Source: an uncultured Methanobrevibacter sp.
Lineage (GTDB): Archaea; Methanobacteriota; Methanobacteria; Methanobacteriales; Methanobacteriaceae
Reading direction: 5' to 3'
DNA: 64,000 nt
Assembly (NCBI RefSeq): GCF_902801725.1
Contig: NZ_CADCJB010000001.1
Coordinates: forward strand, 1 to 64,000
The position numbers were made by a program, and so were the translations under genes. Each line of letters begins with the position of its first letter. The stretch's first letter is position 1. Under the pieces are notes generated by a model. That model saw only the letters and a program-made list of their open reading frames with translations, was not told where the DNA came from and searched no databases. Positions 8,114-50,775 of this stretch are shown here, piece after piece.

Positions 8114-8686
8114 TTAGAAATCTTCAAACAAAGCCCAAATTTCAGGGTATTTTTTAGAAACTGCCTCTTCAATTAATATTGATGCTTCTTTTGAAATACT
8201 GAATTCAGGTTCTGTTTTTCTTAAATATCTAAAAACAGCTGAAGACCTTGAAGACCAAAGTGTTATTCTTGGATTTTTATCAACAATTTCTTTAACTTCA
8301 GCTATATGTTCTTTCTGTATTTGGACTTCTTGTGGTGTTTGTAAGCTTTCTTCAGTAGATATATCGCTAGATATGTCTTCGGATGCTTCATCAACTTCCT
8401 TATCTTCATTTTGAGAAACCTCCTCTTCAACTATTTCTTCTTCATTATCTTTTTCATCTTCTTCTAAAGAGTCTTCTTTTTGAGATTCGATTTCCTTTTC
8501 AATCTGATCAAAAATGTTTTCTTTTTCATTATCCTCTTCATTTTTAGATACATCCACTTCTTCACCTGAATCTCCTTCATCATTTAACATATCTTCAAGT
8601 GACTGAGTTGAATTACTGTCAAAATCTTCATTATAGAAATCAGGAATTAATGAGTCTAAACCTTTTCCAAGCCCTTTTCTAGCCAT
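8114..8686 (-). CDS. Acidic ParA-partner protein with ParB-like N-terminus
   Basis: 190 residues. Its ATG directly follows the TAA of parA, so the two are translationally linked; the GGAG site lies inside the end of parA. The N-terminus MARKGLGKGLDSLIPDF matches the 'GLGRGLDALI' motif at the start of bacterial ParB/Spo0J, the segment that contacts ParA. Residues about 20-125 are overwhelmingly Glu/Asp/Ser and look disordered. A compact C-terminal region of about 55 residues (RITLWSSRSSAVFRYLRK through KKYPEIWALFEDF) is predicted to be one strand and two helices. The ParB nuclease-like fold and its HTH are absent. I infer an adaptor or site-binding partner for ParA; the C-terminal fold (ribbon-helix-helix or histone-like) is unresolved. 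Confidence 0.7.
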   Translation of the reverse strand: MARKGLGKGLDSLIPDFYNEDFDSNSTQSLEDMLNDEGDSGEEVDVSKNEEDNEKENIFDQIEKEIESQKEDSLEEDEKDNEEEIVEEEVSQNEDKEVDEASEDISSDISTEESLQTPQEVQIQKEHIAEVKEIVDKNPRITLWSSRSSAVFRYLRKTEPEFSISKEASILIEEAVSKKYPEIWALFEDF

Positions 8687-9466
8687 TTATAACTCCTCTC
8701 CATCTCTTTTAAGAATTTCTTTAGCTAATTTTAAATAAGCTTTAGTACCTGTACTTTCAGGATCGTAAATTAAACAAGGTTTGCCAAAACTAGGCGCTTC
8801 GGCCAATCTGATGTTTCTTGGAATTATTGTCTTAAACAACAAATCTGTGTCGCCGAAGTAATTTTTGAGTTCTTTATGTACATCTTTACTAAGTCTGGTT
8901 CTTTTATCAAATAGAGTTAGGAGAATTCCTTTAATAGGTGTAGGACTTCTAAGCCTTTTTTCAACTAATTTTATTGTATTAATTAAATCAGCAACTCCTT
9001 CTAAAGCATAATACTCAGCTTGGATAGGAATTAAAACACTATCGGAAGCTACTAATGCATTGACAGTAATTACACCTAATGAAGGAGGTAAGTCAATAAA
9101 GATATAATCAAATAACGGAACTACATCTTTTAGGGTTTCTTTCAGTACAATATGGTAATTTTCACGTTTTGAAAGTTCCATTCCTGCACCACTTAGGGAT
9201 ATATTACTTGGGATAATAAACAAATTTTTTATAAACGTAGGAATTGTCGCTTTTTTAATACTAATATCCCCCATGATAGCATCATAAATTGTATTTTCTA
9301 CTTTAGTCTTATCAATCCCAAAGCTAGTTGTAGCATTAGCCTGAGGATCCATATCAACAACTAAAACAGATTTACCCATCACCGCTAGAGATGTTGCAGT
9401 ATTAACAACTGTAGTTGTCTTTCCGCAACCCCCTTTTTGATTCATCACTGCAATTACTTCACTCAT
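8687..9466 (-). CDS. parA: ParA/Soj-family chromosome partitioning ATPase
   Basis: 259 residues, normal length for the family. It has a deviant Walker A (KGGCGKTTT, residues 11-19), the ParA signature DMDPQANAT, and a Walker B-like segment YIFIDLPPSLG. The C-terminal IPRNIRLAEAPSFGKP motif is diagnostic of ParA/Soj rather than MinD. It is a cytoplasmic ATPase acting on the nucleoid in chromosome segregation. An AGGAG-type site precedes ATG 9466. It is followed without a gap by the ParB-N-like gene and preceded by a palindrome-rich spacer that may be its operator or segregation site. Confidence 0.92.
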   Translation of the reverse strand: MSEVIAVMNQKGGCGKTTTVVNTATSLAVMGKSVLVVDMDPQANATTSFGIDKTKVENTIYDAIMGDISIKKATIPTFIKNLFIIPSNISLSGAGMELSKRENYHIVLKETLKDVVPLFDYIFIDLPPSLGVITVNALVASDSVLIPIQAEYYALEGVADLINTIKLVEKRLRSPTPIKGILLTLFDKRTRLSKDVHKELKNYFGDTDLLFKTIIPRNIRLAEAPSFGKPCLIYDPESTGTKAYLKLAKEILKRDGEEL

Positions 9467-21992: not shown

Positions 21993-22015
21993 TTCCTTTT
22001 TTTTTATTGACTTTT

Positions 22016-22037
22016 TTTACACTTGAAATCCACCTCT
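22016..22037 (+). promoter_or_regulatory. Isolated origin recognition box (ORB)
   Basis: An exact copy of the 13-bp Methanothermobacter mini-ORB TTTACACTTGAAA (22016-22028) runs into TCCACCTCT. The 20-mer 22018-22037 matches the outermost origin ORB at 35763-35782 at 18 of 20 positions. It lies 50-70 bp upstream of the CobQ-like gene and far from the origin, so Orc1/Cdc6 may bind here as well. Confidence 0.7.
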
Positions 22038-22086
22038 AAAATTTTATAAATTATCAGGTATAACTAATAAGTAAGAGGTTATTCTT

Positions 22087-25284: not shown

Positions 25285-28133
25285 TTGAAGAAAAAATTTT
25301 TAATACTCATTAGCTATTTTGCTAGTATTAAGCATAAATGTTGCAAGTGCTGGGGATAATACAACAAAAGAAGTAATTTCTTTAAGTGAAGAGAATACAT
25401 TAGGGGATCCGGCAACGATTGGAACATTTGATGAGCTTCAAAAATATATCGACAAATCAACTACTGGCCAAATTAGTTTAAATAGAAGTTATGCTTATGA
25501 TAGTACAGATAGTGCATATATAACAGGTATAAATATCACTAAAGCCATAGAAATTGAGGGTAATGGATATACCATTGATGGTAATCATACTGCAAGGATT
25601 TTCAATGTCACTGCCGGCGATGTCGTTTTAAAAAATATTAATTTTGTCAATGCTAATGCAACTCTAAACTCTGGTGGTGCCATTTACAACAGCGCGAATA
25701 ATTTGAAGATAATTAATTGTACTTTCAATTCAAATCATGCAAAAGATGGTGGTGCAATATACACTTTAGGCAATATAACAATAGAAGATTCTACTTTTAA
25801 GTCAAATGATGCTTATAATGAGACTAAAGGTAGTAATCATCATGCTGGAGCAATTTATATTAAAGGCAAACAATCCTCTATAAAAAATTCTATTTTTGAT
25901 TCTAATTATGCGAACGTTCATGGAGCAATTTATTTTGAAGGAATCAATCTGACCTTGAATAATTGTTCGTTTAAGTTAAACCGAGCCGGAGGTAGTGGTG
26001 CATTAGGAACAAAAGGAAAATATTTACAGGTAAATAACTGTACATTTGAATCCAACAACGGCACAACTGGTTTTGGTGGAGCTATAAATTCTGAAAGAAC
26101 AAAACTCAACATATCCAACAGTACTTTTAGAGAAAATTCTATTGGAAGTCTATCTGGGGGTGCATTATTTTTCGATGAAAGTGATGTGGTTATTTTTAAT
26201 TCCACTTTCGAACTTAATGATGGAGGACATGGTGGCGGAGCCATTTTTGCCCAAAATTATAATAATATAAAAATTATTGGTTCCAGATTTAAATCAAATT
26301 GTGGTGCTTGGTTTGGTGGTGCAATTAATTTAAACTATGAACAACAACAAGAACCCTTTGAGGGTATATTAAATATCTCTGATTCCATTTTCGAATCCAA
26401 TTATATGGATTTAGATTTAGGCGTGAATGGTGGAGCAATCGCTGCTGGTGGAACTAATGCACATTTATTCATATATAACACTACATTCAAGTCTAACCAG
26501 GCTAAATCGTTGGGTGGAGCTATAGATTCTACCATACCTACAAATATTTCCAATTGTAGATTTGAAAATAATACTGCTAATTGGGGTGGAGCAATAAGTT
26601 ACGATTATAATGATATAAATATCTATGCTTCTAATTTCACATCAAATCAGGCTATTACCATGGATTTACAAGGATTCACATCTGTAGGTAATGGTGGTGC
26701 AATTTATGTAGTTGGAACATCTGCCACTATTTCAAATTGTACTTTTAAATCCAATAATGCTACTTCAAGCGGTGGTGCAATTTTTTCAAGAGGAAATAAT
26801 GCAGTTATTTTCAATACCACTTATGAATTAAATTCTGCAGGTGAAGAAGGTGGAGCAATTTATTCAGTAGGAAATAATGCAGTTATTTTCAATACCACTT
26901 ATGAATTAAATTCTGCCGTTGCAAAAGGTGGTGCAATATATTCCGAGGGAAAAAATGCAACCATCGATTTAGCTTATTTCAATGCCAATAATGCAACCCA
27001 AGGTTCTGCTATAGTAACTCTCGGAATAATCAATGTAAATGAAAACATCACAGGACTTGAATTGGCAACAGGTGTTTATACAGTTAATTTAATTACAATT
27101 GTAGATGCTAACCATACTACTGCTATAAATAGAATGTCCACCATAACTGTTAAAAAGGCAGATTCTTCTGTTAGTGTTGATTCTGTTAAAGCTGTTTATG
27201 GTGAAGAGATTGTTATTCCTATTTCTTGTGAAAATGCAACAGACATTGATTACATTATCATTAATGGTGATGGCATTGTAGTTGCTGAAGGTACTGTTGA
27301 GCCTGGAAAAGACATTAATGTTTATGAGTTGCCTGTTGGTGATTATAGTTAAGGTTACTACTGTCACTGATAATAATCATTCCTCAGTTTCCGCTGAAGC
27401 TAATTTAACAATCAATAAAGCCATTCCAATCATCACAATTCAAGTTGTCGATATTATGTATGGTGAAGTTGAAGTGTTAAATATTACATCCACTGCTCCG
27501 GGAACTGTCAATGTCACAGTGAATGGCATGACTAACACTTTAGAGTTAAACAGTGTATCCAATGGCTTATTGTCTTACTCAATATTGTATCTTTTAAAAG
27601 AAGATCAAAAAGCAACTTGGAACATATATAACTTACCTGTTGGTGAATACCCAGCATTTGCCATATACAATGCTAATGAAAACTATGAAAATGTAAACAC
27701 ATCAGACGTCTTTAATGTAAATCCAATCAAGCCGTCAATAAATATCAAAGTAAATGATATTAATGTAGGAGATACACTTGAAATAGAAGTATCTCTTCCA
27801 GATGATGCAACAGGCATTATTACTGTTGAAATCGACGGTAAAAATTATACTGCTCCAGTTAAATATGGAAAAGCAATTATTCATATTCCGGGTTTAACTG
27901 CAGGAAATAAGGTTGCAAAGATATATTACTCTGGTGACGACCAATACTCACCAATTGAAGATTCAGTTAAATTTAAAGTAAATAAAATTTTACCAACTTT
28001 AAATATTGATTCTAAAGATATAGCTGTAGGTAAAGACGGTAAAATTGTAATAACTCTTCCTACAGATGCAACTGGAACTGTAACTATTGAAGTTGATGGT
28101 AAAACCTATACTCTCTTTTTATTTTTTAATTGA
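25285..28133 (+). pseudogene. Adhesin-like protein gene with two frameshifts and a lost C-terminus
   Basis: A TTG at 25285 behind GGGTG starts the signal peptide (LKKKFLI), but the hydrophobic core (SLAILLVLSINVASAG) is in another frame. One extra base lies between 25304 and about 25318; the C at 25306 would explain it. The main frame then codes about 670 residues of beta-helix repeats (GGAIY, NCTFKSNN) and the first Ig-like domain. It stops at 27350-27352 after VGDYS, where loss of one GT from a presumed GTGT gives a second shift. The sequence resumes as VKVTTVTDNNHSS, with further Ig-like domains (EVSLPDDATGIITVEIDGKNYT) to 28133. There it ends mid-domain (GKTYT then LFLFFN), without any cell-wall anchor. 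Probably non-functional. Confidence 0.8.
26792..26916 (+). repeat. 47-bp perfect direct repeat within the beta-helix region
   Basis: Bases 26792-26838 recur exactly at 26870-26916, a period of 78 bp or 26 codons. The unit encodes GNNAVIFNTTYELNSA. In-frame duplication or deletion by recombination is possible and would change the number of beta-helix rungs. Confidence 0.85.
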
Positions 28134-33062: not shown

Positions 33063-33998
33063 TTGATTAAAATTTTCAAACTAAAAAATATTATTTCCAT
33101 AAAAGATTTTGAAAGGAAAGACATTGACTACCTTCTTGATGAAGCTGAAAAGTTAGAAGATGTTGCCAAGTCAAAAGAGATTTCAGAAGAACTTAAAGGA
33201 AAACTTTTAGGTTTAATGTTTTTTGAACCATCCACAAGAACAAGACTATCTTTTGAAACAGCAATGAAACGTTTAGGTGGAAAATGTATTGGTTTTGATA
33301 GTAGCGGATCCAGTTCAGTGTCAAAAGGTGAAAGCATTGCAGATACAGCAAAAATGTTTGAGGGTTACACTGATGCAATGGTAATCAGGCACGAACTTGA
33401 AGGGGTTTCAAAATTCATTTCAGACATTGTTGACGTTCCTGTTATTAATGCAGGAGACGGTGCCGGACAACACCCAACACAAACATTGCTGGATTTATAT
33501 ACAATAAGAAAGGAAATAGGTGAAATCGACAATTTAAAAATAGCCTTAATAGGGGATTTGAAGTTTGGCCGTACAGTACATTCCCTGGCAAATGCATTAT
33601 GCCTGTACAATAACGTTAAAATTTATCTTGTATCACCAAATAAACTCAAAATGCCTCAAGAAGTTCTTCATGACCTGCATAAGACCGACATTGTATATGA
33701 AGAAGTTGAAAACATTGAAAGCATAATTGATGATGTTGATGTTTTGTATGTAACAAGAATTCAAAAAGAGCGCTTCGGAGATATTAACGACTATATGAAA
33801 ATAAAAGGAGCTTATATAATAAACAAAAAAATGTTGGAAGGTAAAGATGTCATCGTAATGCATCCCCTACCAAGAATTGATGAAATCAACGGTGATGTTG
33901 ACGATACAAAATACAATAAATACTTCATTCAAGCTTTCAATGCCGTTCCAGTAAGAATGGCAATATTGAAAACATTAATAGAAAACAACCCTAAATAG
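33063..33998 (+). CDS. pyrB: Aspartate carbamoyltransferase catalytic subunit
   Basis: 311 residues. The carbamoyl-phosphate loop [13 protein letters not shown], the [12 protein letters not shown] motif and [11 protein letters not shown] are all present. It catalyses the committed step of pyrimidine synthesis and in archaea usually pairs with PyrI, not seen here. The annotated start is a TTG at 33063, 4 bp after hisG. The usual GGTGAT site appears as GGTTGAT and overlaps it, so the real start may be the near-cognate ATT at 33072. The 3' end overlaps the convergent orc1/cdc6 gene by 8 bp. Confidence 0.93.
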
Positions 33999-35154
33999 AG
34001 AAGAGGGTTGTTTCAAGTAAATCTTCATCGCATTGCAACTTGATAATGTTGGTTCTTCCTTTTCCACGACCTCTTGAAATTGTATTTGTAGAAATAATAC
34101 CCAACAATTCAAGTTCATTAATGAAATCGAAAATTCTTCTATAGGTAACTGCATCCTTCTTGGACAGTTCCTTATATTCATCATATAACTTTCCGGAACT
34201 GATTTCCTCACCATTCTTGGTCAAGTTTAAGATTGCTTCCAAAAGCCTTTGTTGCTGTAAAGGCAAAGTTTGAATAATTTCAGTAACCTTATTATGTTCA
34301 ATTCTATCTTTTGCCATCTTGACATGTTCGCTTGTAACCTTAACTGAATCTTCATCAAATGCCAATTCACCAGCATTCTTAAGCAGGTCCAAAGCGTATC
34401 TTGCATCACCTTCTTCCTTGGCTGCCATAGCTGAACATAAAGGAATTACATCATCTTCCAAAACATCATCGTTAAATGCCAATAGAGCCCTTTCTGTTAG
34501 TATATCACTCAATTGATCTGCTCCATAAGGAGGAAATACAATTTCCTTATCATTCAGACTACTTGTAACCCTGGATTTAATTAAGTTTTTGAAATCCAAA
34601 TAATTACTGATTGACAAAACGGAAACATTGTCTGTTCTTGTTAATGTATAAAGAATCCCATCTCCATCTTTGTCAAGCAAAATGTCTATTTCATCCAGAA
34701 TAACAATCAAAATCAATTTTTTTCCAAAAGCATTTGTTTTGAAGATATCTCTAAATGTATTTACAATTTCTCCTTTTGTCCAACCTCTGTTAGGAACATC
34801 CCTTCCTAATTTCTGACATAATTGGGCTATAACTTGATATTCTGTTGTATAATCAGTACATCTTATGTATTCCACTTTAACAAAAACATTTTTATTGTTG
34901 GCTGCATCAATCAATTGTTCACGAGCAAATTTAGATGCTGCTGTTTTTCCTGTTCCTGTCTTACCGTATAATGTTACATTAGATGGGGTTACTTCGTTTA
35001 ATGCATCAACCCAATATTTCGCGATTTGTCTAATTTGTTCTTCCCTGTGAACTAACTTATCAGGTAAAAATCTATGATCCAAAGGTTTTTTATCTTTAAA
35101 GATGATTTTGCTTGATGAGTCAGTATGTTCTATTTCATCGAAAATGTTTGACAT
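33991..35154 (-). CDS. cdc6: Orc1/Cdc6 replication initiator
   Basis: 387 residues. The AAA+ domain has Walker [14 protein letters not shown], Walker [14 protein letters not shown], sensor 1 [12 protein letters not shown] and the arginine-rich sensor 2 region ([19 protein letters not shown]). A C-terminal winged helix (residues about 290-387) binds DNA. It recognises ORB elements at the origin and loads MCM. It is transcribed away from the adjacent origin-like region at 35155-35788, the usual archaeal arrangement. Its end overlaps pyrB by 8 bp. Confidence 0.95.
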
Positions 35155-35445
35155 GTTAACACCAGTAAATTGATAATATAAATTAAAGTAAAAATTAGAA
35201 AAAAACTGTAAGTATAATTTCTAGTGATAATATATTGCAAGTCTAATAAATAAAGTTTTTTATTACAATAGTGATAAAAAAATTATAATCGGATAAATAT
35301 ATTTTCTTTAAATCAAATATATTAATCTTAAAACTTATGATTTTACAATTAAAAAAATAAATCAATTTAATTTCATAAAATAATGATTTATATCCAATTA
35401 AAATTAAAACATGAAATAGTAAAATTTCAATTATAAAAATAACTA

Positions 35446-35458
35446 TTTCAAGTGTAAA
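35446..35458 (-). promoter_or_regulatory. Mini-ORB
   Basis: Exact reverse complement of TTTACACTTGAAA. The extended CTCT-side half is not conserved here. It is the origin element nearest to orc1/cdc6. Confidence 0.8.
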
Positions 35459-35542
35459 AATTCACTCATCTGATAAAAATCCATAACCATATTTAACTTT
35501 AAGGAAAATTTTTCAAAGAAAAATTAGTAGTGTCAGAGTGAG

Positions 35543-35562
35543 AGAGATGTGTTTCAAGTGTA
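35543..35562 (-). promoter_or_regulatory. Origin recognition box, full form
   Basis: On the minus strand it reads TACACTTGAAACACATCTCT. It shares its 20-bp form with 35591-35610 except at two positions. The spacing of 48 bp between the two suggests similar faces of the helix. Confidence 0.85.
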
Positions 35563-35590
35563 TGACTTTTCATCCAAAAATCAATTTTCA

Positions 35591-35610
35591 AGAGATGTAT
35601 TTCAAGTGTA
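35591..35610 (-). promoter_or_regulatory. Origin recognition box, full form
   Basis: On the minus strand it reads TACACTTGAAATACATCTCT. Same orientation as the box at 35543. Confidence 0.85.
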
Positions 35611-35704
35611 TCGAAAATGAAAAAATGATAAGAAATCAGAAATCTCAAATAATAATGTTAAAATCAGCTAAAATTTAAAATAAAGAAAAAATTTGAAAGA
35701 TAAA

Positions 35705-35735
35705 TTTCAAGTGTTTACAGTTGAAATATACCTCT
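35705..35735. promoter_or_regulatory. Overlapping inverted pair of ORB-like elements
   Basis: A minus-orientation core (TTTCAAGTGTTTA, 35705-35717) abuts a plus-orientation element with TTGAAATATACCTCT (35721-35735). The TTTCAA/TTGAAA arms form a dyad. Orientation switches from minus to plus here. Confidence 0.65.
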
Positions 35736-35762
35736 TCAGTCTTAATATATCCACAAAATGGT

Positions 35763-35782
35763 TATACTTGAAATGCACCTCT
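35763..35782 (+). promoter_or_regulatory. Origin recognition box, full form
   Basis: TATACTTGAAATGCACCTCT in plus orientation, opposite to the boxes at 35543 and 35591. It lies 7 bp beyond the stop codon of the neighbouring minus-strand gene (35789). Confidence 0.82.
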
Positions 35783-35788
35783 CCCTCT

Positions 35789-36334: not shown

Positions 36335-37372
36335 ATGATTGAATATAATAATCTAATTAATGATATTATTTTTACCCAAACAGGAAATATTAATTCATTA
36401 AACTTATTCTTATTCATTATATTCTCATTATTGTTTTCACTTGCAATTGATGTCATCTTTGGAGAACTTCCAGGAAAGATTCATCCTGTTGTCATAATAG
36501 GATCAATAATAAATTTCTTCAGAGGTCTGTTTATAGGATTTAGAAACAGGATATCAGGAATATTGTTGGTATTGTGTACCTGCTTTGTTTCAAGCCTGAT
36601 ATTATATATAATTTATTTTATATGTAAATTTAATATAATATTGTTATTTATCATGTTTATCATATTATTATCATCTTCATTTTCTGTTAAAATGTTATTG
36701 GAAACAGCAATAAGTGTTGAAAATGACCTGAATGATAGTTTGGAAAAAGCAAGAAAATCAGTATCATATCTTGTTAGCAGAAGTACTGATGAATTGACAG
36801 AAAGCTTCATCGTTTCGGCAACAATAGAAAGCATGACTGAAAACATTACCGATTCATATGTCGCTCCGATTTTTTACTACTTCATATTTTCAATAATAAT
36901 AATTTTAAATCCAATTGATAATTGTCTGTACCTACTCCTTTTAGTTCCTATTCTCTACAGGATGTTCAACACACTTGATGCAATGGTTGGATACACAACA
37001 GATGAATTGAAGTTTATTGGCTATGTTCCAGCTAAAATCGATGACATTTTGAATTTCATCCCTTCAAGAATTGCAGGTCTGTATGTTGTTATTTCCGCAT
37101 ATCTTCTTAAACTTGATGGTAAAAACAGCTTTAAGATAATGATGAGAGATGCTCGAAATTGTCCAAGTCCAAATTCAGGTTATACCATGGCATCAGCAGC
37201 TGGAGCCCTGAATATAAGGCTGGTTAAAAAAGATACATATATTTTAGGAGATGAAAACAAGCCTATTGAAGTCAATGACATTGAAAAGGCAGTCAATCTA
37301 TCAAAATTGACAATTATTTTATTTACTATAACTATAATATTATTATTGATATTGGTTAATGTGATATTATGA
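36335..37372 (+). CDS. cbiB: Adenosylcobinamide-phosphate synthase CbiB/CobD
   Basis: 345 residues, an integral membrane protein. The signature FGELPGKIHPVVIIG is near residue 45 and RDARNCPSPNSGYTMASAAGAL near residue 265. Hydrophobic segments lie at both ends and in the middle. It attaches the aminopropanol-type linker to adenosylcobyric acid in cobalamin synthesis. cbiG overlaps its stop by 4 bp, so the two form an operon. Confidence 0.92.
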   Translation: MIEYNNLINDIIFTQTGNINSLNLFLFIIFSLLFSLAIDVIFGELPGKIHPVVIIGSIINFFRGLFIGFRNRISGILLVLCTCFVSSLILYIIYFICKFNIILLFIMFIILLSSSFSVKMLLETAISVENDLNDSLEKARKSVSYLVSRSTDELTESFIVSATIESMTENITDSYVAPIFYYFIFSIIIILNPIDNCLYLLLLVPILYRMFNTLDAMVGYTTDELKFIGYVPAKIDDILNFIPSRIAGLYVVISAYLLKLDGKNSFKIMMRDARNCPSPNSGYTMASAAGALNIRLVKKDTYILGDENKPIEVNDIEKAVNLSKLTIILFTITIILLLILVNVIL

Positions 37373-38385
37373 AAATTGCAATCATTTCTGTTTCAAAAAA
37401 AGGTCAGGATTTAGCAGTTTCATTAAAAGAGAAACTGAATAATGATTCTACAATAATAAGAACTGATCTTTTTCACAAGGATGTCAAAAATAAGTTTCCA
37501 ATTTTATTTTATGAATATGATGCAATAATTGCAATAATGGCATCTGGAATATTGATAAGATCCATCGCTCCATTGATAGAATCAAAAACTTCAGATCCTG
37601 CAGTATTGAATATTGATGATAATGGTAATTTTGTAATATCTGTTCTATCAGGTCATTTGGGAGGCGCAAACAGACTAACAGAAAAAGTTGCTAGTATGAT
37701 TGATGCTATACCCGTTATAACCACTTCCACTGATGTTAATAAAAAATTGGGAATTGATGTAATTGCCAAAGACCTATATCTGTCAATTGATGATACAAGT
37801 GAAATTCTATTTTTCAACAAGTCAATTTTAGAAGGAAAAGAAATTTCATTTATTGTAAATTCCGATAAAAATTTTAAGTATTTTTTTGAGTATCTAAATA
37901 ATAATACACTTGAAATTAACCTTTCAGTTGAATTTTCTTCAGAAGTTAATACAGATGAAATTCATGTCATGCTTGATGACCATAAACTTATATTAAAAGA
38001 GCGGAAACTTGTTGTCGGACTAGGCTGCAGACGTGGGAAGGAATGCATAAGATTATATGACGGATTGAAAAAATCAATCAGAGATTTAAATATTCCTTTA
38101 TCAAGAATTAATCAATTGTCCTCAGCTGAAATCAAGAAAGATGAAAAGGGAATGTTGGAACTGTCAGATAAATTGAATATTCCTATTAATTTTGTAGAAT
38201 TAGATAAGTTAAGATTATTTGAATCGAATGATATACAAAAATCAGAGTTTGTAAAGTCAAAATTTGGAATTTATGGCGTTTGTGAACCATCAGCACTGAT
38301 AACAGCAGGATATGATTCAAAATTGATTTACAAAAAAACCTCTTATGATGGTGTTACAATAGCTATCGCTATTTCAAAATTTTAA
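37369..38385 (+). CDS. cbiG: Cobalt-precorrin 5A hydrolase
   Basis: 338 residues. The N-terminal domain contains IIAIMASGILIRSIAPLIESKTSDPAVLNID and SGHLGGANRLTEKVA. The C-terminal domain has LVVGLGCRRGKE and GVCEPSAL. Both are classic CbiG signatures. It opens the lactone ring of cobalt-precorrin 5A, releasing acetaldehyde, in the anaerobic corrinoid pathway. It is coupled to cbiB; cbiH lies 3.7 kb downstream on the same strand. Confidence 0.93.
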   Translation: MKIAIISVSKKGQDLAVSLKEKLNNDSTIIRTDLFHKDVKNKFPILFYEYDAIIAIMASGILIRSIAPLIESKTSDPAVLNIDDNGNFVISVLSGHLGGANRLTEKVASMIDAIPVITTSTDVNKKLGIDVIAKDLYLSIDDTSEILFFNKSILEGKEISFIVNSDKNFKYFFEYLNNNTLEINLSVEFSSEVNTDEIHVMLDDHKLILKERKLVVGLGCRRGKECIRLYDGLKKSIRDLNIPLSRINQLSSAEIKKDEKGMLELSDKLNIPINFVELDKLRLFESNDIQKSEFVKSKFGIYGVCEPSALITAGYDSKLIYKKTSYDGVTIAIAISKF

Positions 38386-39567: not shown

Positions 39568-41292
39568 TTATAAGAATTTTAAATGTTTATATTTACCTTT
39601 GTGAAGTACAGGAACTTCTGCAGGAGTCGGTTCAATGTTATAAATTTTCTGAAACTCAGTCTGTGTCTGAAAAGTACCTGAATTGATCATATGAACTCCT
39701 TTGAATCTTCTGTATGTATTAATATGAACGTGTCCTGTATGGAATACGTCAGGAACATCTTCAATCACAAGATAGTCTTCAAGCTCAGATGCTAAAGGTG
39801 TTCTTTCTCCATAAATTGGAGCTAAATGTCTTTTTTGAAGTAGTTCTTCCATTAATAGGTCATTTCTTTCATGTGTAAATTCCTTCACGGCCATTACCAA
39901 ATCATCAAAACTACGTCCATGGTATATCAAAACATTTATTCCATCCAATGACACCACACCCGGATTAGAAATGAATTCAACATTGTCTAGTTCATATAGT
40001 GCATTAGCGTATTCTTCAGGCACTGCAGGTTGAGGTTCTGCAACTCTTGAAGCGTCGTGGTTTCCAGGAGCGATAATTATCTTGATATCGCTTCTAATGT
40101 TTCCTAAAAATCTGGCAGCTTCATTGTATTGTTCTGTAATGTCCTTAATTGCAAGCTCTTTTTCCTGGTTTGGATAAACACCGATCCCATCCACGATATC
40201 TCCACCAATGACTAGATATTTAACGTCTTCAGCAATTTTTCTTTGTTCTTCGCTACCATAATCACAGTTAATCCAATCGATAAATCTTGTAAAAGCATCT
40301 TCCAGAAATGTTAAGCTGCCAATGTGAACATCAGATAGGAATACAATTCCGAAGTCCATTTCCTTTTCGGGGATTCTTAAAACTCCCGGATTGATTATTT
40401 GCTGACCGAATGCAAAGGAGTTGTCTTTACTCTTGTTTGCAATTACACCAATTACCTCATCCCTGACAAGTTTTTCAGCTTCTGCAAACAATTCATCATT
40501 GTTGTTTGAGAATAGGACTGAAATGCTTCCTGTATCATCTTCAAATTCAACGATTTTATGACCGTTTTTACTTGACCTGATTTCTTTAACCATTAAAATC
40601 ATGCTTAAGCTATCCTGTGAGTCGTCAATGTCAGCGACCTTAATAGGATTTCTTAACTCTGGTCTTTTGGATAGGATGTTATATAACTTTTCATATCTGC
40701 TTTGGAAATATGAGATTAGGTTTTCGAGCTCTCCGCTGGTGTATGATTTTTTACTGGTGTCTTGAATGATTTCAAAATCATATTCGACATTACTTTTTTC
40801 CAAATTCCTTTTAAATTTGATTTTTTCATCTTTTACAGTTTCTGAAGCTTCTAAAATGGCTTTATTGATATGTTTTTCTTTCACGTCACTGTCTTTTTTT
40901 AGATTTTCTATACTAATATCCTTTTTTTGTGGTGTTTGGTTTTGTATTGGTTTTTTTGTTTCTGTTGGTGTTGTTTGTGTTTGGTTTTGTATTGGTTTTT
41001 TTGTTTCTGTTGGTGTTGTTTGAGGTTTTTCTGTTTTAACCTCACCGGCATCTGTTAATGTTTTTTGATTATCCTTTTCAGGTATTTCTTTATTTCCTGT
41101 TATTTCATCAACTGTTTCACCACTAACTGATATCAAGTCTTTTGATGTGAATTTATCACTTTTTAATTTGACTATGAGTGAAGATGCAAAATCTATAGGA
41201 TTTTCTGCATTAATAACTTTATCATAAGCATCAGGTGATAGGTTGATTCCCTTTTTTGCAAATTTTAATAGAATTTTATTAGTAGTTGACAT
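39568..41292 (-). CDS. polB: DNA polymerase D small subunit (DP1)
   Basis: 574 residues. It has an N-terminal helical domain, a low-complexity linker (residues about 80-150) with a tandem [14 protein letters not shown] repeat, an OB fold (about 215-310), and a calcineurin-like phosphoesterase domain: [46 protein letters not shown]. The metal-binding motifs are intact, consistent with the 3'-5' exonuclease of archaeal DP1. It partners the large subunit DP2 (not in the window) as the main replicative polymerase. It lies 4-6 kb from the presumed origin. Confidence 0.95.
40934..41023. repeat. 45-bp tandem repeat, two copies, in the DP1 linker
   Basis: The two units (40934-40978, 40979-41023) are nearly identical and encode [15 protein letters not shown]-type repeats in the disordered linker of the PolD small subunit. 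In-frame copy number could vary between strains. Confidence 0.8.
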
Positions 41293-45117: not shown

Positions 45118-45984
45118 CTAATTCCATGCCTTTAAAATCAGTTCACATTCATTCGTTCTGAAATAGTCGTATTTTAGATTATTTCTATCGAAATTTTTCG
45201 GAACGCTTACCAAAACAGCTTTGGCATCAGGCTTATCAAGATGAATGAAAACAATTGAACTGGAATCATCGTAAAAGTTGATTTCATCGTTCAAATAGAT
45301 TACATCATCGTATATGGGCTGCCAGCTTTTTGATTTGACAACTCTTGTTGAATCCATATAATATTTCAGTTCGTTTTGTTCCCTTTCATCAGTGAGCAGA
45401 TAGTAATCTGAAGCCCTCAAATTGCCTTTGAATACTTTAAAGTAGTTGCAGCTGTGTGAATCCTGGTCATGATTTCTGTTGCACTTGCCTTCAAGCTGAA
45501 AGTCTTTTAGTACATATTTTTTGAAAAAGTCGCATTTCACCAGTCTGTTGACCGAGTGGACATTTCCAGAGCCGGCATCACCACCTATTTTTACACTTGA
45601 AATTGTACTCTCATGCGGAATGAGTTCCATTGAGGTTTTAATTTTTGAGTTAAACAATATCTTGGTCACGTACTTTTCATAATTACTTCCAAGAGCTAGA
45701 AATTTTGAATATGCCACACTGTTTGGAATAATCTGTCCCTCCTCATTTACAATTGCAAGACCAGGGGTTCCTTTTTTGTGAACTTCCCAGTTGCTTGGAG
45801 TTCCTGGATTGTTTATTAGATTGACAATACTCTCTTCAATCAATGTCTGAATATGTTCATTTTCGCTCTGTTTTGCGATTTTGTGTGTACTTATTTCACT
45901 TAATGAAAGAACGATTCCCGCAATCATTATGAGAATTATCATGATGACTGCTATTTCAAGCGTTAGAGTTCCTCTACTGTCCAT
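45118..45984 (-). CDS. Type IV pilin-like secreted protein
   Basis: 288 residues. MDSRG then TLTLEIAVIMIILIMIAGIV is a class III (prepilin) signal: short charged leader, Gly before the cut, Glu at position +5, then a long hydrophobic helix. The rest is a soluble domain with a few Cys residues (CDFFKKYV, GKCNRN, DSHSCNYF) that may form disulfides. It starts inside the end of the upstream gene (11-bp overlap), so the two are translated together. Probably a minor pilin or pseudopilin of a surface filament; no assembly ATPase or peptidase gene is nearby. Confidence 0.65.
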   Translation of the reverse strand: MDSRGTLTLEIAVIMIILIMIAGIVLSLSEISTHKIAKQSENEHIQTLIEESIVNLINNPGTPSNWEVHKKGTPGLAIVNEEGQIIPNSVAYSKFLALGSNYEKYVTKILFNSKIKTSMELIPHESTISSVKIGGDAGSGNVHSVNRLVKCDFFKKYVLKDFQLEGKCNRNHDQDSHSCNYFKVFKGNLRASDYYLLTDEREQNELKYYMDSTRVVKSKSWQPIYDDVIYLNDEINFYDDSSSIVFIHLDKPDAKAVLVSVPKNFDRNNLKYDYFRTNECELILKAWN

Positions 45985-48992: not shown

Positions 48993-49916
48993 ATGACTCT
49001 TAAGGTATCGGATATTGGTGAAAAAGAATTGGTTCGATATATTATTGCTAATTCCAAAGACATTACCCCTGATGATACAGCCATCACACCATTAAACAGT
49101 TCAAATCTGATTTCTACATGCGACATGCTCATTCAGTCAAAACACTTTCCAAAAAACATGTCCTATTTTGACATTGGCTTTAAGTCCGTGACAGTTAATG
49201 TAAGTGATTTGGCGGCTATGGGGGCTGAGCCTTTAGGTTTTTTACTGGCAATCGCAATGCCTAAAAACTTGAAATTGGATGATTTTAAGGAAATATTTAG
49301 AGGAGTCCTGAGCGCTTGTGACTATTACCGAATTCCTCTGATTGGAGGAGATACTAATGAAGCATCAGAAATTATCATAACAGGAACCGCATTGGGACTG
49401 ACAGAAAAACCCCTGATGAAAGATTCTTATAATAAAGGTGATTTGATAGCTATTACAGGTGATATTGGGCTTGCAGCTTTAGGTTTTGAATTGGACATGA
49501 TGGATAATGTTTATGTAAAACATGCATTAAAGCCGGAGGCCAGAATTAGGGAAGGTTTGATTTTAAGGGATTTTGCTACTTCAGCCACTGATATTACCGA
49601 TGGACTGGCCAGCGAGTTATATGAAATCAAGAAGAATAATTACGGTTTCATGATTTATGAAGAAATGTTAAACATCTCCGATGAGTATAAATCATTGGCT
49701 AGTGAACTAGATTTGGATTATTTGGATCTGATTTTCCATGTTGGAGAAGATTTTGAACTTCTTTTCACAATCAGTAAAGATGATTCGGAAAAATTGCCAA
49801 TCGAATTTAATGTGATTGGTGAGGTAACAGATTCAGATATTGTTGAACTCACGCTGGAAAACGGGCTTGTTGAGGAAATCAGAAATAAAGGATATGAGCA
49901 TTATGTTAGTGAGTAA
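48993..49916 (+). CDS. thiL: Thiamine-monophosphate kinase
   Basis: 307 residues from ATG 48993 (MTLKVSDIGEKELVRYI). The PurM-like ATP/Mg2+ motifs are DDTAITPL, SVTVNVSDLAAMGAEPLGFL, LIGGDTNEASE and SATDITDGLASEL, followed by HVGEDFELLF. It phosphorylates thiamine monophosphate to the diphosphate cofactor. No clear ribosome site precedes the start. The radical SAM gene overlaps its 3' end by 14 bp. Confidence 0.93.
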   Translation: MTLKVSDIGEKELVRYIIANSKDITPDDTAITPLNSSNLISTCDMLIQSKHFPKNMSYFDIGFKSVTVNVSDLAAMGAEPLGFLLAIAMPKNLKLDDFKEIFRGVLSACDYYRIPLIGGDTNEASEIIITGTALGLTEKPLMKDSYNKGDLIAITGDIGLAALGFELDMMDNVYVKHALKPEARIREGLILRDFATSATDITDGLASELYEIKKNNYGFMIYEEMLNISDEYKSLASELDLDYLDLIFHVGEDFELLFTISKDDSEKLPIEFNVIGEVTDSDIVELTLENGLVEEIRNKGYEHYVSE

Positions 49917-50775
49917 TGAGCTGTATAAAAAAAGTTCAAAGACACAGAAAATTCGTTGTGAGATTTGCGCTAATTACTGTAAGATTGCCGACGGCAAGTA
50001 TGGAATTTGCAGACAGCACAAAAATATTAACGGTGAGTTATTTGATGAATCATATGGTATTGTATCGTCTTTAAGTCCTGATCCGGTTGAAAAAAAGCCT
50101 TTGAATCAGTTCCTGCCGGGAACATTAACATACTCCATAGGAGGTTTTGGATGCAACATGACCTGTTTGCATTGCCAGAACTATATGATATCTCATGAAT
50201 ATGATAAGTATTCAAGAGGTATTAAAATAACACCAGAAGCGATTGTGGAAAATGCACTTAACTATAATTGTAAGTCAATTGCTTGGACATATAATGAACC
50301 TACGATACACTTACCCTTCAGCAAAAAAACTTCACTGCTTGCAAGGCAAAAGGGTTTGAAAGTAATCTATGTAAGCAACGGATATTATTCAGATAAATCT
50401 CTCGAAGAGGTTTTGACTTTTGTCGATGCTTTCAATATAGACTTGAAATCAATGTCTAAAGATTTCTATAGGAAAGTTTGTGGTGCAGACCTTGACATTG
50501 TATTGGATAATTTGAAAAGAGTTTATGATGAGGGCAAGCACTTGGAAATAACAAACTTAATAATCAATGATTATAATGACTCTTTAGATGAAATTAATGA
50601 ACTGTGTGATTTTGTAGTCAGTGAATTGGGTTCTGATGTTCCGCTGCATTTCTCAAGAGCATTTCCCTATTATAAATTAAATGATATTACACCAACAAGG
50701 CCTGAAATATTGTTTAAGGCAAAAGAAATTGCTCAAGAAAAAGGAATAGAGAATGTATATTTAGGTAATATTTAA
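49903..50775 (+). CDS. amrS: AmmeMemoRadiSam system radical SAM enzyme
   Basis: 290 residues from ATG 49903; an earlier ATG inside thiL is rejected. There is an N-terminal Cys motif (IRCEICANYCKIADGKYGICRQH) and a radical SAM cluster GFGCNMTCLHCQNY (CX3CX2C). The YNEPTIH and YVSNGYY barrel motifs are those of the family formerly called pyruvate formate-lyase activating enzyme-like, which co-occurs with AMMECR1 and MEMO proteins. Those partners are not in the window, and the reaction is not firmly established. It is co-transcribed with thiL. Confidence 0.88.
   Translation: MLVSNELYKKSSKTQKIRCEICANYCKIADGKYGICRQHKNINGELFDESYGIVSSLSPDPVEKKPLNQFLPGTLTYSIGGFGCNMTCLHCQNYMISHEYDKYSRGIKITPEAIVENALNYNCKSIAWTYNEPTIHLPFSKKTSLLARQKGLKVIYVSNGYYSDKSLEEVLTFVDAFNIDLKSMSKDFYRKVCGADLDIVLDNLKRVYDEGKHLEITNLIINDYNDSLDEINELCDFVVSELGSDVPLHFSRAFPYYKLNDITPTRPEILFKAKEIAQEKGIENVYLGNI

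Follow-up and report, generated by a model that had tools for sequence, protein, structure and literature searches.

A predicted replication origin of Methanobrevibacter and the conserved initiator boxes that lie outside it

The nearest described counterpart of the locus presented here is the oriC of Methanothermobacter thermautotrophicus, an archaeon of the same order as Methanobrevibacter, which is said to carry Cdc6-1 repeats in work of Capaldi and Berger from 2004 and of Majernik and Chong from 2008. The core TTTACACTTGAAA beside Methanothermobacter cdc6-1 is, we presume, the same as the core found here. A single chromosomal origin has been reported for M. thermautotrophicus (review PMC4010727). 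Sulfolobus oriC1 is organized as ORB2, unwinding region and ORB3, with inverted boxes flanking an A+T-rich region (PMC12141716). Extra ORBs beyond an origin core are known from Haloarcula hispanica, where oriC2D, a single intergenic group of 11 ORBs lying immediately downstream of cdc6E, restrains oriC2 according to genetics, likely by titrating Cdc6E (PMC3936714). The same source cites datA of Escherichia coli as a distant initiator-binding locus that limits initiation.

The window analyzed in the present study is a 64-kb stretch of contig C1 from a Methanobrevibacter-type draft genome of 2.16 Mb in 83 contigs. Its initiator gene, orc1-1 (Table 1), encodes a product scoring 400.7 bits against TIGR02928 (cut-off 181.3), and the closest solved structures over the whole length of this protein are Sso Cdc6-1 (2qby) and Aeropyrum Cdc6 (2v1u). 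The adjacent 634-bp gap holds six strong ORBs with the core TTTCAAGTGTA (complement TACACTTGAAA), four pointing one way and two the other. It also has a weak copy, the counterpart of which many loci keep ~20 bp from the neighboring box. At one mismatch or fewer the core occurs at 15 sites in the 64 kb, where 3.1 would be expected, with six of them inside a 330-bp part of the origin gap, and an extended 20-mer at three mismatches or fewer gives 9 matches in the window against 0.07 expected. Across the 2.16-Mb draft this 20-mer has 15 matches, all on contigs C1 and C10, compared with a single match for the reversed-pattern control. Four clear ORBs and an overlapping inverted pair, as described by an earlier sequence-only reading, are thus clustered far above chance. 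The lineage-specific extended box that it suggested is likewise borne out, the AGAGGT/AGACAT flanks carrying information in a position matrix built on the orc1-1 upstream gaps of 60 loci.

Table 1. Features of the predicted origin, of the outlying boxes in the window and of the second array (window coordinates unless a contig is named; cores are TTTCAAGTGTA or its complement)
Feature	Position	Strand	Core at	Remarks
Outlying ORB, perfect 20-mer	22012..22038	-		gap between amidase gene and CobB/CobQ-like (CfbB-like) gene; 13.1 kb from orc1-1
orc1/cdc6 initiator gene (orc1-1)	33991..35154	-		TIGR02928, AAA+, Cdc6_lid, Cdc6_C winged-helix domains
Intergenic origin gap, 634 bp	35155..35788			between orc1-1 (-) and 3' end of DUF2299 gene (-)
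A+T-rich tract, 88-90% AT	about 35245..35425			candidate unwinding region
Weak ORB-like match, score 15.9	35415..35441	+		seventh match in origin gap, position matrix
ORB 1	35436..35462	+	35446	
ORB 2	35542..35568	+	35552	
ORB 3	35590..35616	+	35600	48 bp from ORB 2
Second A+T-rich tract, 80-85% AT	35611..35695			ORB 3 to head-to-head pair; candidate unwinding region
ORB 4	35695..35721	+	35705	left half, head-to-head pair
ORB 5	35710..35736	-	35716	right half, head-to-head pair
ORB 6	35757..35783	-	35763	47 bp from ORB 5; end adjoins DUF2299 stop codon
Outlying ORB in cbiG (37369-38385 +)	37899..37925	-		+2.7 to 2.8 kb; frozen synonymous codons
Weaker ORB-like match in cbiG	37944..37970	-		45 bp from first cbiG box; codon support weak
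Outlying ORB in uncharacterised CDS (45118-45984 -)	45586..45612	-		+10.4 kb; frozen synonymous codons
Second ORB array	contig C10, locus L001 8744-9034	one orientation		five strong and one weak ORB, ~53-bp spacing
Facing single ORB	contig C10, L001 14762-14788	opposed to array		about 6 kb from second array

Like Sulfolobus oriC1, the locus has Orc1-1 boxes of fixed polarity in an inverted arrangement beside orc1 (PMC12141716). It differs from oriC1 in box sequence and in that its innermost opposed boxes overlap head-to-head, with the A+T-rich tracts placed elsewhere. The sequence-only reading had pictured two opposed groups of boxes around A+T-rich tracts, of which the flip in orientation stands, being the abutting or overlapping head-to-head pair of ORBs 4 and 5; A+T-rich tracts are indeed present in the gap, yet none separates the innermost opposed boxes. 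Because these boxes overlap, we infer that unwinding would more probably take place in the tract at 35245-35425 or in that at 35611-35695.

About 50 Methanobrevibacter loci share this arrangement of boxes, which is nearly fixed in its spacing, with a box at d ~305, a 48-bp pair, a head-to-head pair whose starts are ~15 bp apart (48 of 57 loci) and a last box 47 bp further on. The commonest box orders in orc1 orientation are ------++ and -----++. GC skew was sampled as 20-kb stretches in two complete Methanobrevibacter genomes, G017 and G020, the genome of the window itself being a draft. At the homologous orc1-1 site both genomes have the cumulative-skew minimum, one clean negative-to-positive switch in GC skew and a switch in coding strand, so that the skew extremum looked for by the sequence-only reading is found in two complete relatives. 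The other skew switch of G017 (2,273,296 bp) lies almost opposite the origin, and the second sign change of G020 (1,853,160 bp) is off-opposite, its right arm switching at ~570-620 kb of 1853 kb. Since GC skew and gene strand both switch there in these relatives, and given the clustering of the boxes and their layout in the genus, the region 35155-35788 is almost certainly the main chromosomal replication origin of a Methanobrevibacter, in keeping with the origin proposed by the sequence-only reading. Short of experiment, and judged by sequence, it has what an archaeal ORB-type oriC requires, including an adjacent orc1/cdc6, opposed ORBs beyond chance and, at the homologous site in two complete relatives, a switch in strand composition. 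The origin itself is a further example of this known archaeal type, as expected, and the comparison supplies an exact oriC map for the main methanogen genus of gut and rumen. A sister genus (loci L214-L231, orc1-1 ~63% identical) has a different origin layout, in which 4-6 ORBs ~50-55 bp apart occupy one side and a lone ORB of opposed orientation lies ~370 bp away.

ORBs also occur well outside the gap; these, like the second array, had escaped the sequence-only reading. In 1.08 Mb of orc1-flanking loci the position matrix found 108 matches outside the origin gap, as against one for the reversed matrix, and 740 kb sampled from other parts of two complete genomes yielded only one match with a score of at least 18. 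These outlying ORBs recur at homologous places across relatives. The intergenic box upstream of the CobB/CobQ-like gene is found in the same gap in ~20 species, 9.8-13 kb from orc1-1, and stands out against diverged flanks. The cbiG box is mostly missing in the sister genus, in which two near-identical loci have one at a shifted codon. Relatives have a further ORB inside an OGG/HhH-GPD DNA-glycosylase gene, located by gene position at +118 kb in G020 and G008, +135 kb in G007 and +73 kb in G006, and in two genomes another lies at +34 to +37 kb, in the gap on the downstream side of a dTDP-glucose-dehydratase-like gene. Past the window, the stretch 64001-80557 of the contig contains no match with a score of at least 15. 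A lone, unconserved match at 27767 was rejected as an outlying ORB, as were exact 11-mers on contigs C2, C60, C66 and C68, which score too low for the matrix threshold and probably arose by chance.

Several outlying boxes lie within coding sequences, and here the codons are informative. In cbiG, Thr180 is encoded by ACA in 35 of 35 species keeping the residue and Leu181 by CTT in 33 of 33, against pooled codon identities of 0.46 and 0.28, respectively, and the overlapping ORB windows 177-179 rank first to third of 329 in synonymous-codon conservation. The uncharacterized CDS at 45118 has four consecutive codons of this kind (ATT 26/26, TCA 28/28, AGT 29/29, GTA 30/30), its ORB-overlapping window being first of 280 by the same measure. 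In the DNA-glycosylase gene ACA (23/23) and GAA (29/29) are likewise fixed, and of 301 windows the highest-ranking one overlaps the box. Pooled over these genes, 7 of 10 degenerate codons in box cores are invariant compared with 1 of 414 elsewhere in the same genes (p = 2e-12, a somewhat optimistic value because the core limits were drawn after a first look at the codon data). Eleven control genes of the region have 20 near-invariant columns in 2085, none of them in an ORB-like block. Frozen synonymous codons that set these genes apart from the controls indicate selection acting on the DNA, and by this comparative measure the outlying boxes at the three coding sites are kept by such selection. 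Initiator boxes under selection beyond the origin comprise three frozen coding sites plus one conserved intergenic site.

Two look-alikes, at 36430 in cobD and at 50438 in a radical-SAM gene, failed the codon-constraint test and were set aside as coincidences of protein sequence; that the same test rejected them indicates that it discriminates. Across 30 genomes the most codon-conserved part of the radical-SAM gene (49903-50775) is codons ~118-128 (50254-50300), where there is no ORB.

Contig C10 of the draft encodes a second, diverged orc1 of the NCBIfam PRK00411 subfamily (orc1-2, 25% identity). The second ORB array lies 2.7 kb from this gene; it is interleaved with A+T-rich repeats and has an aminotransferase V gene on one side and a YtfJ/GerW-like gene on the other. 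Comparable arrays occur 2.9-4 kb from orc1-2 in several relatives, G001, G006, G017 and G035 among them; none adjacent to orc1-2 was seen in G007 or G020. At the homologous array of G017 (272 kb) the skew does not switch, with values of +0.08, +0.07 and +0.07 across the region, so that this array is not a long-standing main origin, and we rejected the C10 array as a second main origin. The array may serve to titrate initiator, or it may be a dormant origin.

We consider it very probable that the window contains a main bidirectional origin accompanied by outlying ORBs that are recognized by the same initiator and kept by selection. Orc1-1, supplied by the adjacent gene, would bind the opposed ORB groups, after which an A+T-rich tract nearby would open and the MCM helicase would be loaded by origin-bound Orc1-1, by extension from other archaea. 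The position of the cluster directly upstream of orc1-1, together with a weak ORB-like match near the orc1 start in relatives, could instead mean that it is a mere autoregulatory element of orc1-1 and that the origin lies elsewhere, but with both skew and gene strand switching at the site in two complete genomes this is highly improbable. For the second array, activity as an origin, whether current or dormant, in place of titration is rather unlikely. The spacing of its five or six ORBs (53 bp), the interleaved repeats, the distance of less than 3 kb to orc1-2 and the facing ORB ~6 kb away would suit an origin, and at the main orc1 of the sister genus the layout is similar, with 5-6 ORBs ~50-55 bp apart and a facing box; against this stand the lack of a skew switch at the G017 array and the two genomes in which an orc1-2-adjacent array was not seen.

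The motif shared with the origin suggests that Orc1-1 would also recognize the outlying single ORBs and the second array. Bound there, away from the origin, it would be subject to competition between sites that could limit re-firing, and the outlying boxes would soak up initiator because most of them are copied soon after initiation. Of the roles considered, titration of Orc1-1 is the likeliest for the outlying boxes, by analogy with described systems, and we assign it tentatively. We would put it at somewhat less than an even prospect that boxes dispersed on the scale of the chromosome, several in synonymous positions 2.7 to >100 kb away, time or limit initiation by titrating Orc1-1 together with the orc1-2 array. 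Titration predicts only occupancy and delay, and other uses of outlying Orc1 sites thus fit equally. One such use, which we regard as unlikely, is that the outlying ORBs are operators through which Orc1-1 regulates transcription of nearby genes. The conserved intergenic ORB lies ~50 bp upstream of the CobB/CobQ-like gene, near the expected promoter position, and relatives have several scattered intergenic ORBs; archaeal Orc1 paralogues can regulate, Orc1-2 being a DNA-damage regulator (PMC9738581). However, the best-constrained boxes sit mid-coding in unrelated genes (cbiG, the uncharacterized CDS and the DNA glycosylase) and not at promoters. Less probable still is that the boxes would organize or segregate the origin region in a parS-like manner, with Orc1 as a landmark. 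Most outlying ORBs are near the origin, those checked share the orc1-1 orientation, and a ParA-like ATPase sits next to a ParB-like partner whose distance from the origin in the complete relatives is 24-26 kb, but the boxes are non-palindromic and no link of ParA/ParB-like proteins to ORBs is known.

If the outlying boxes titrate Orc1-1, their closest parallel is oriC2D of H. hispanica, which also consists of ORBs beyond the origin core (PMC3936714). Unlike this single cluster, the boxes described here include isolated ones, several of them in coding sequences, and extend up to ~100 kb from the origin. E. coli datA resembles the outlying ORBs in that these too are distant predicted initiator-binding sites; it differs in being one clustered locus for an unrelated initiator, DnaA. 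We found no description of single initiator boxes in synonymous positions of unrelated genes in the open-access literature covered, and an earlier description of scattered repeats in the two primary Methanothermobacter papers is possible. How archaea limit initiation is little described in the open-access literature covered, apart from the haloarchaeal oriC2D. The outlying boxes, which suggest a second layer of replication control, matter more than the origin. The effect is visible from sequence alone, and codons 180-181 of cbiG and 128-132 of the 45118-45984 CDS are concrete sites for protein-neutral recoding.

The ParA-like ATPase gene (8687-9466) is followed by that of its small ParB-like partner (8114-8686), the pair occupying 8114-9466 on the minus strand. 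The partner has MARKGLGKGLDSLIP at its N-terminus as well as an acidic linker, is conserved at its C-terminus (NPRITLWS..FRYLRKTEPEFSISKEAS..KKYPEIW), matches no Pfam or NCBIfam family, and has a homologue in 11 of 11 genomes from four genera, the distance of 24-26 kb from the origin applying to complete Methanobrevibacter genomes. An in-frame repeat occurs at 40766-41292, in the N-terminal region of the DNA polymerase D small-subunit gene, where a stretch of 13 protein letters (not shown) is present in two copies.
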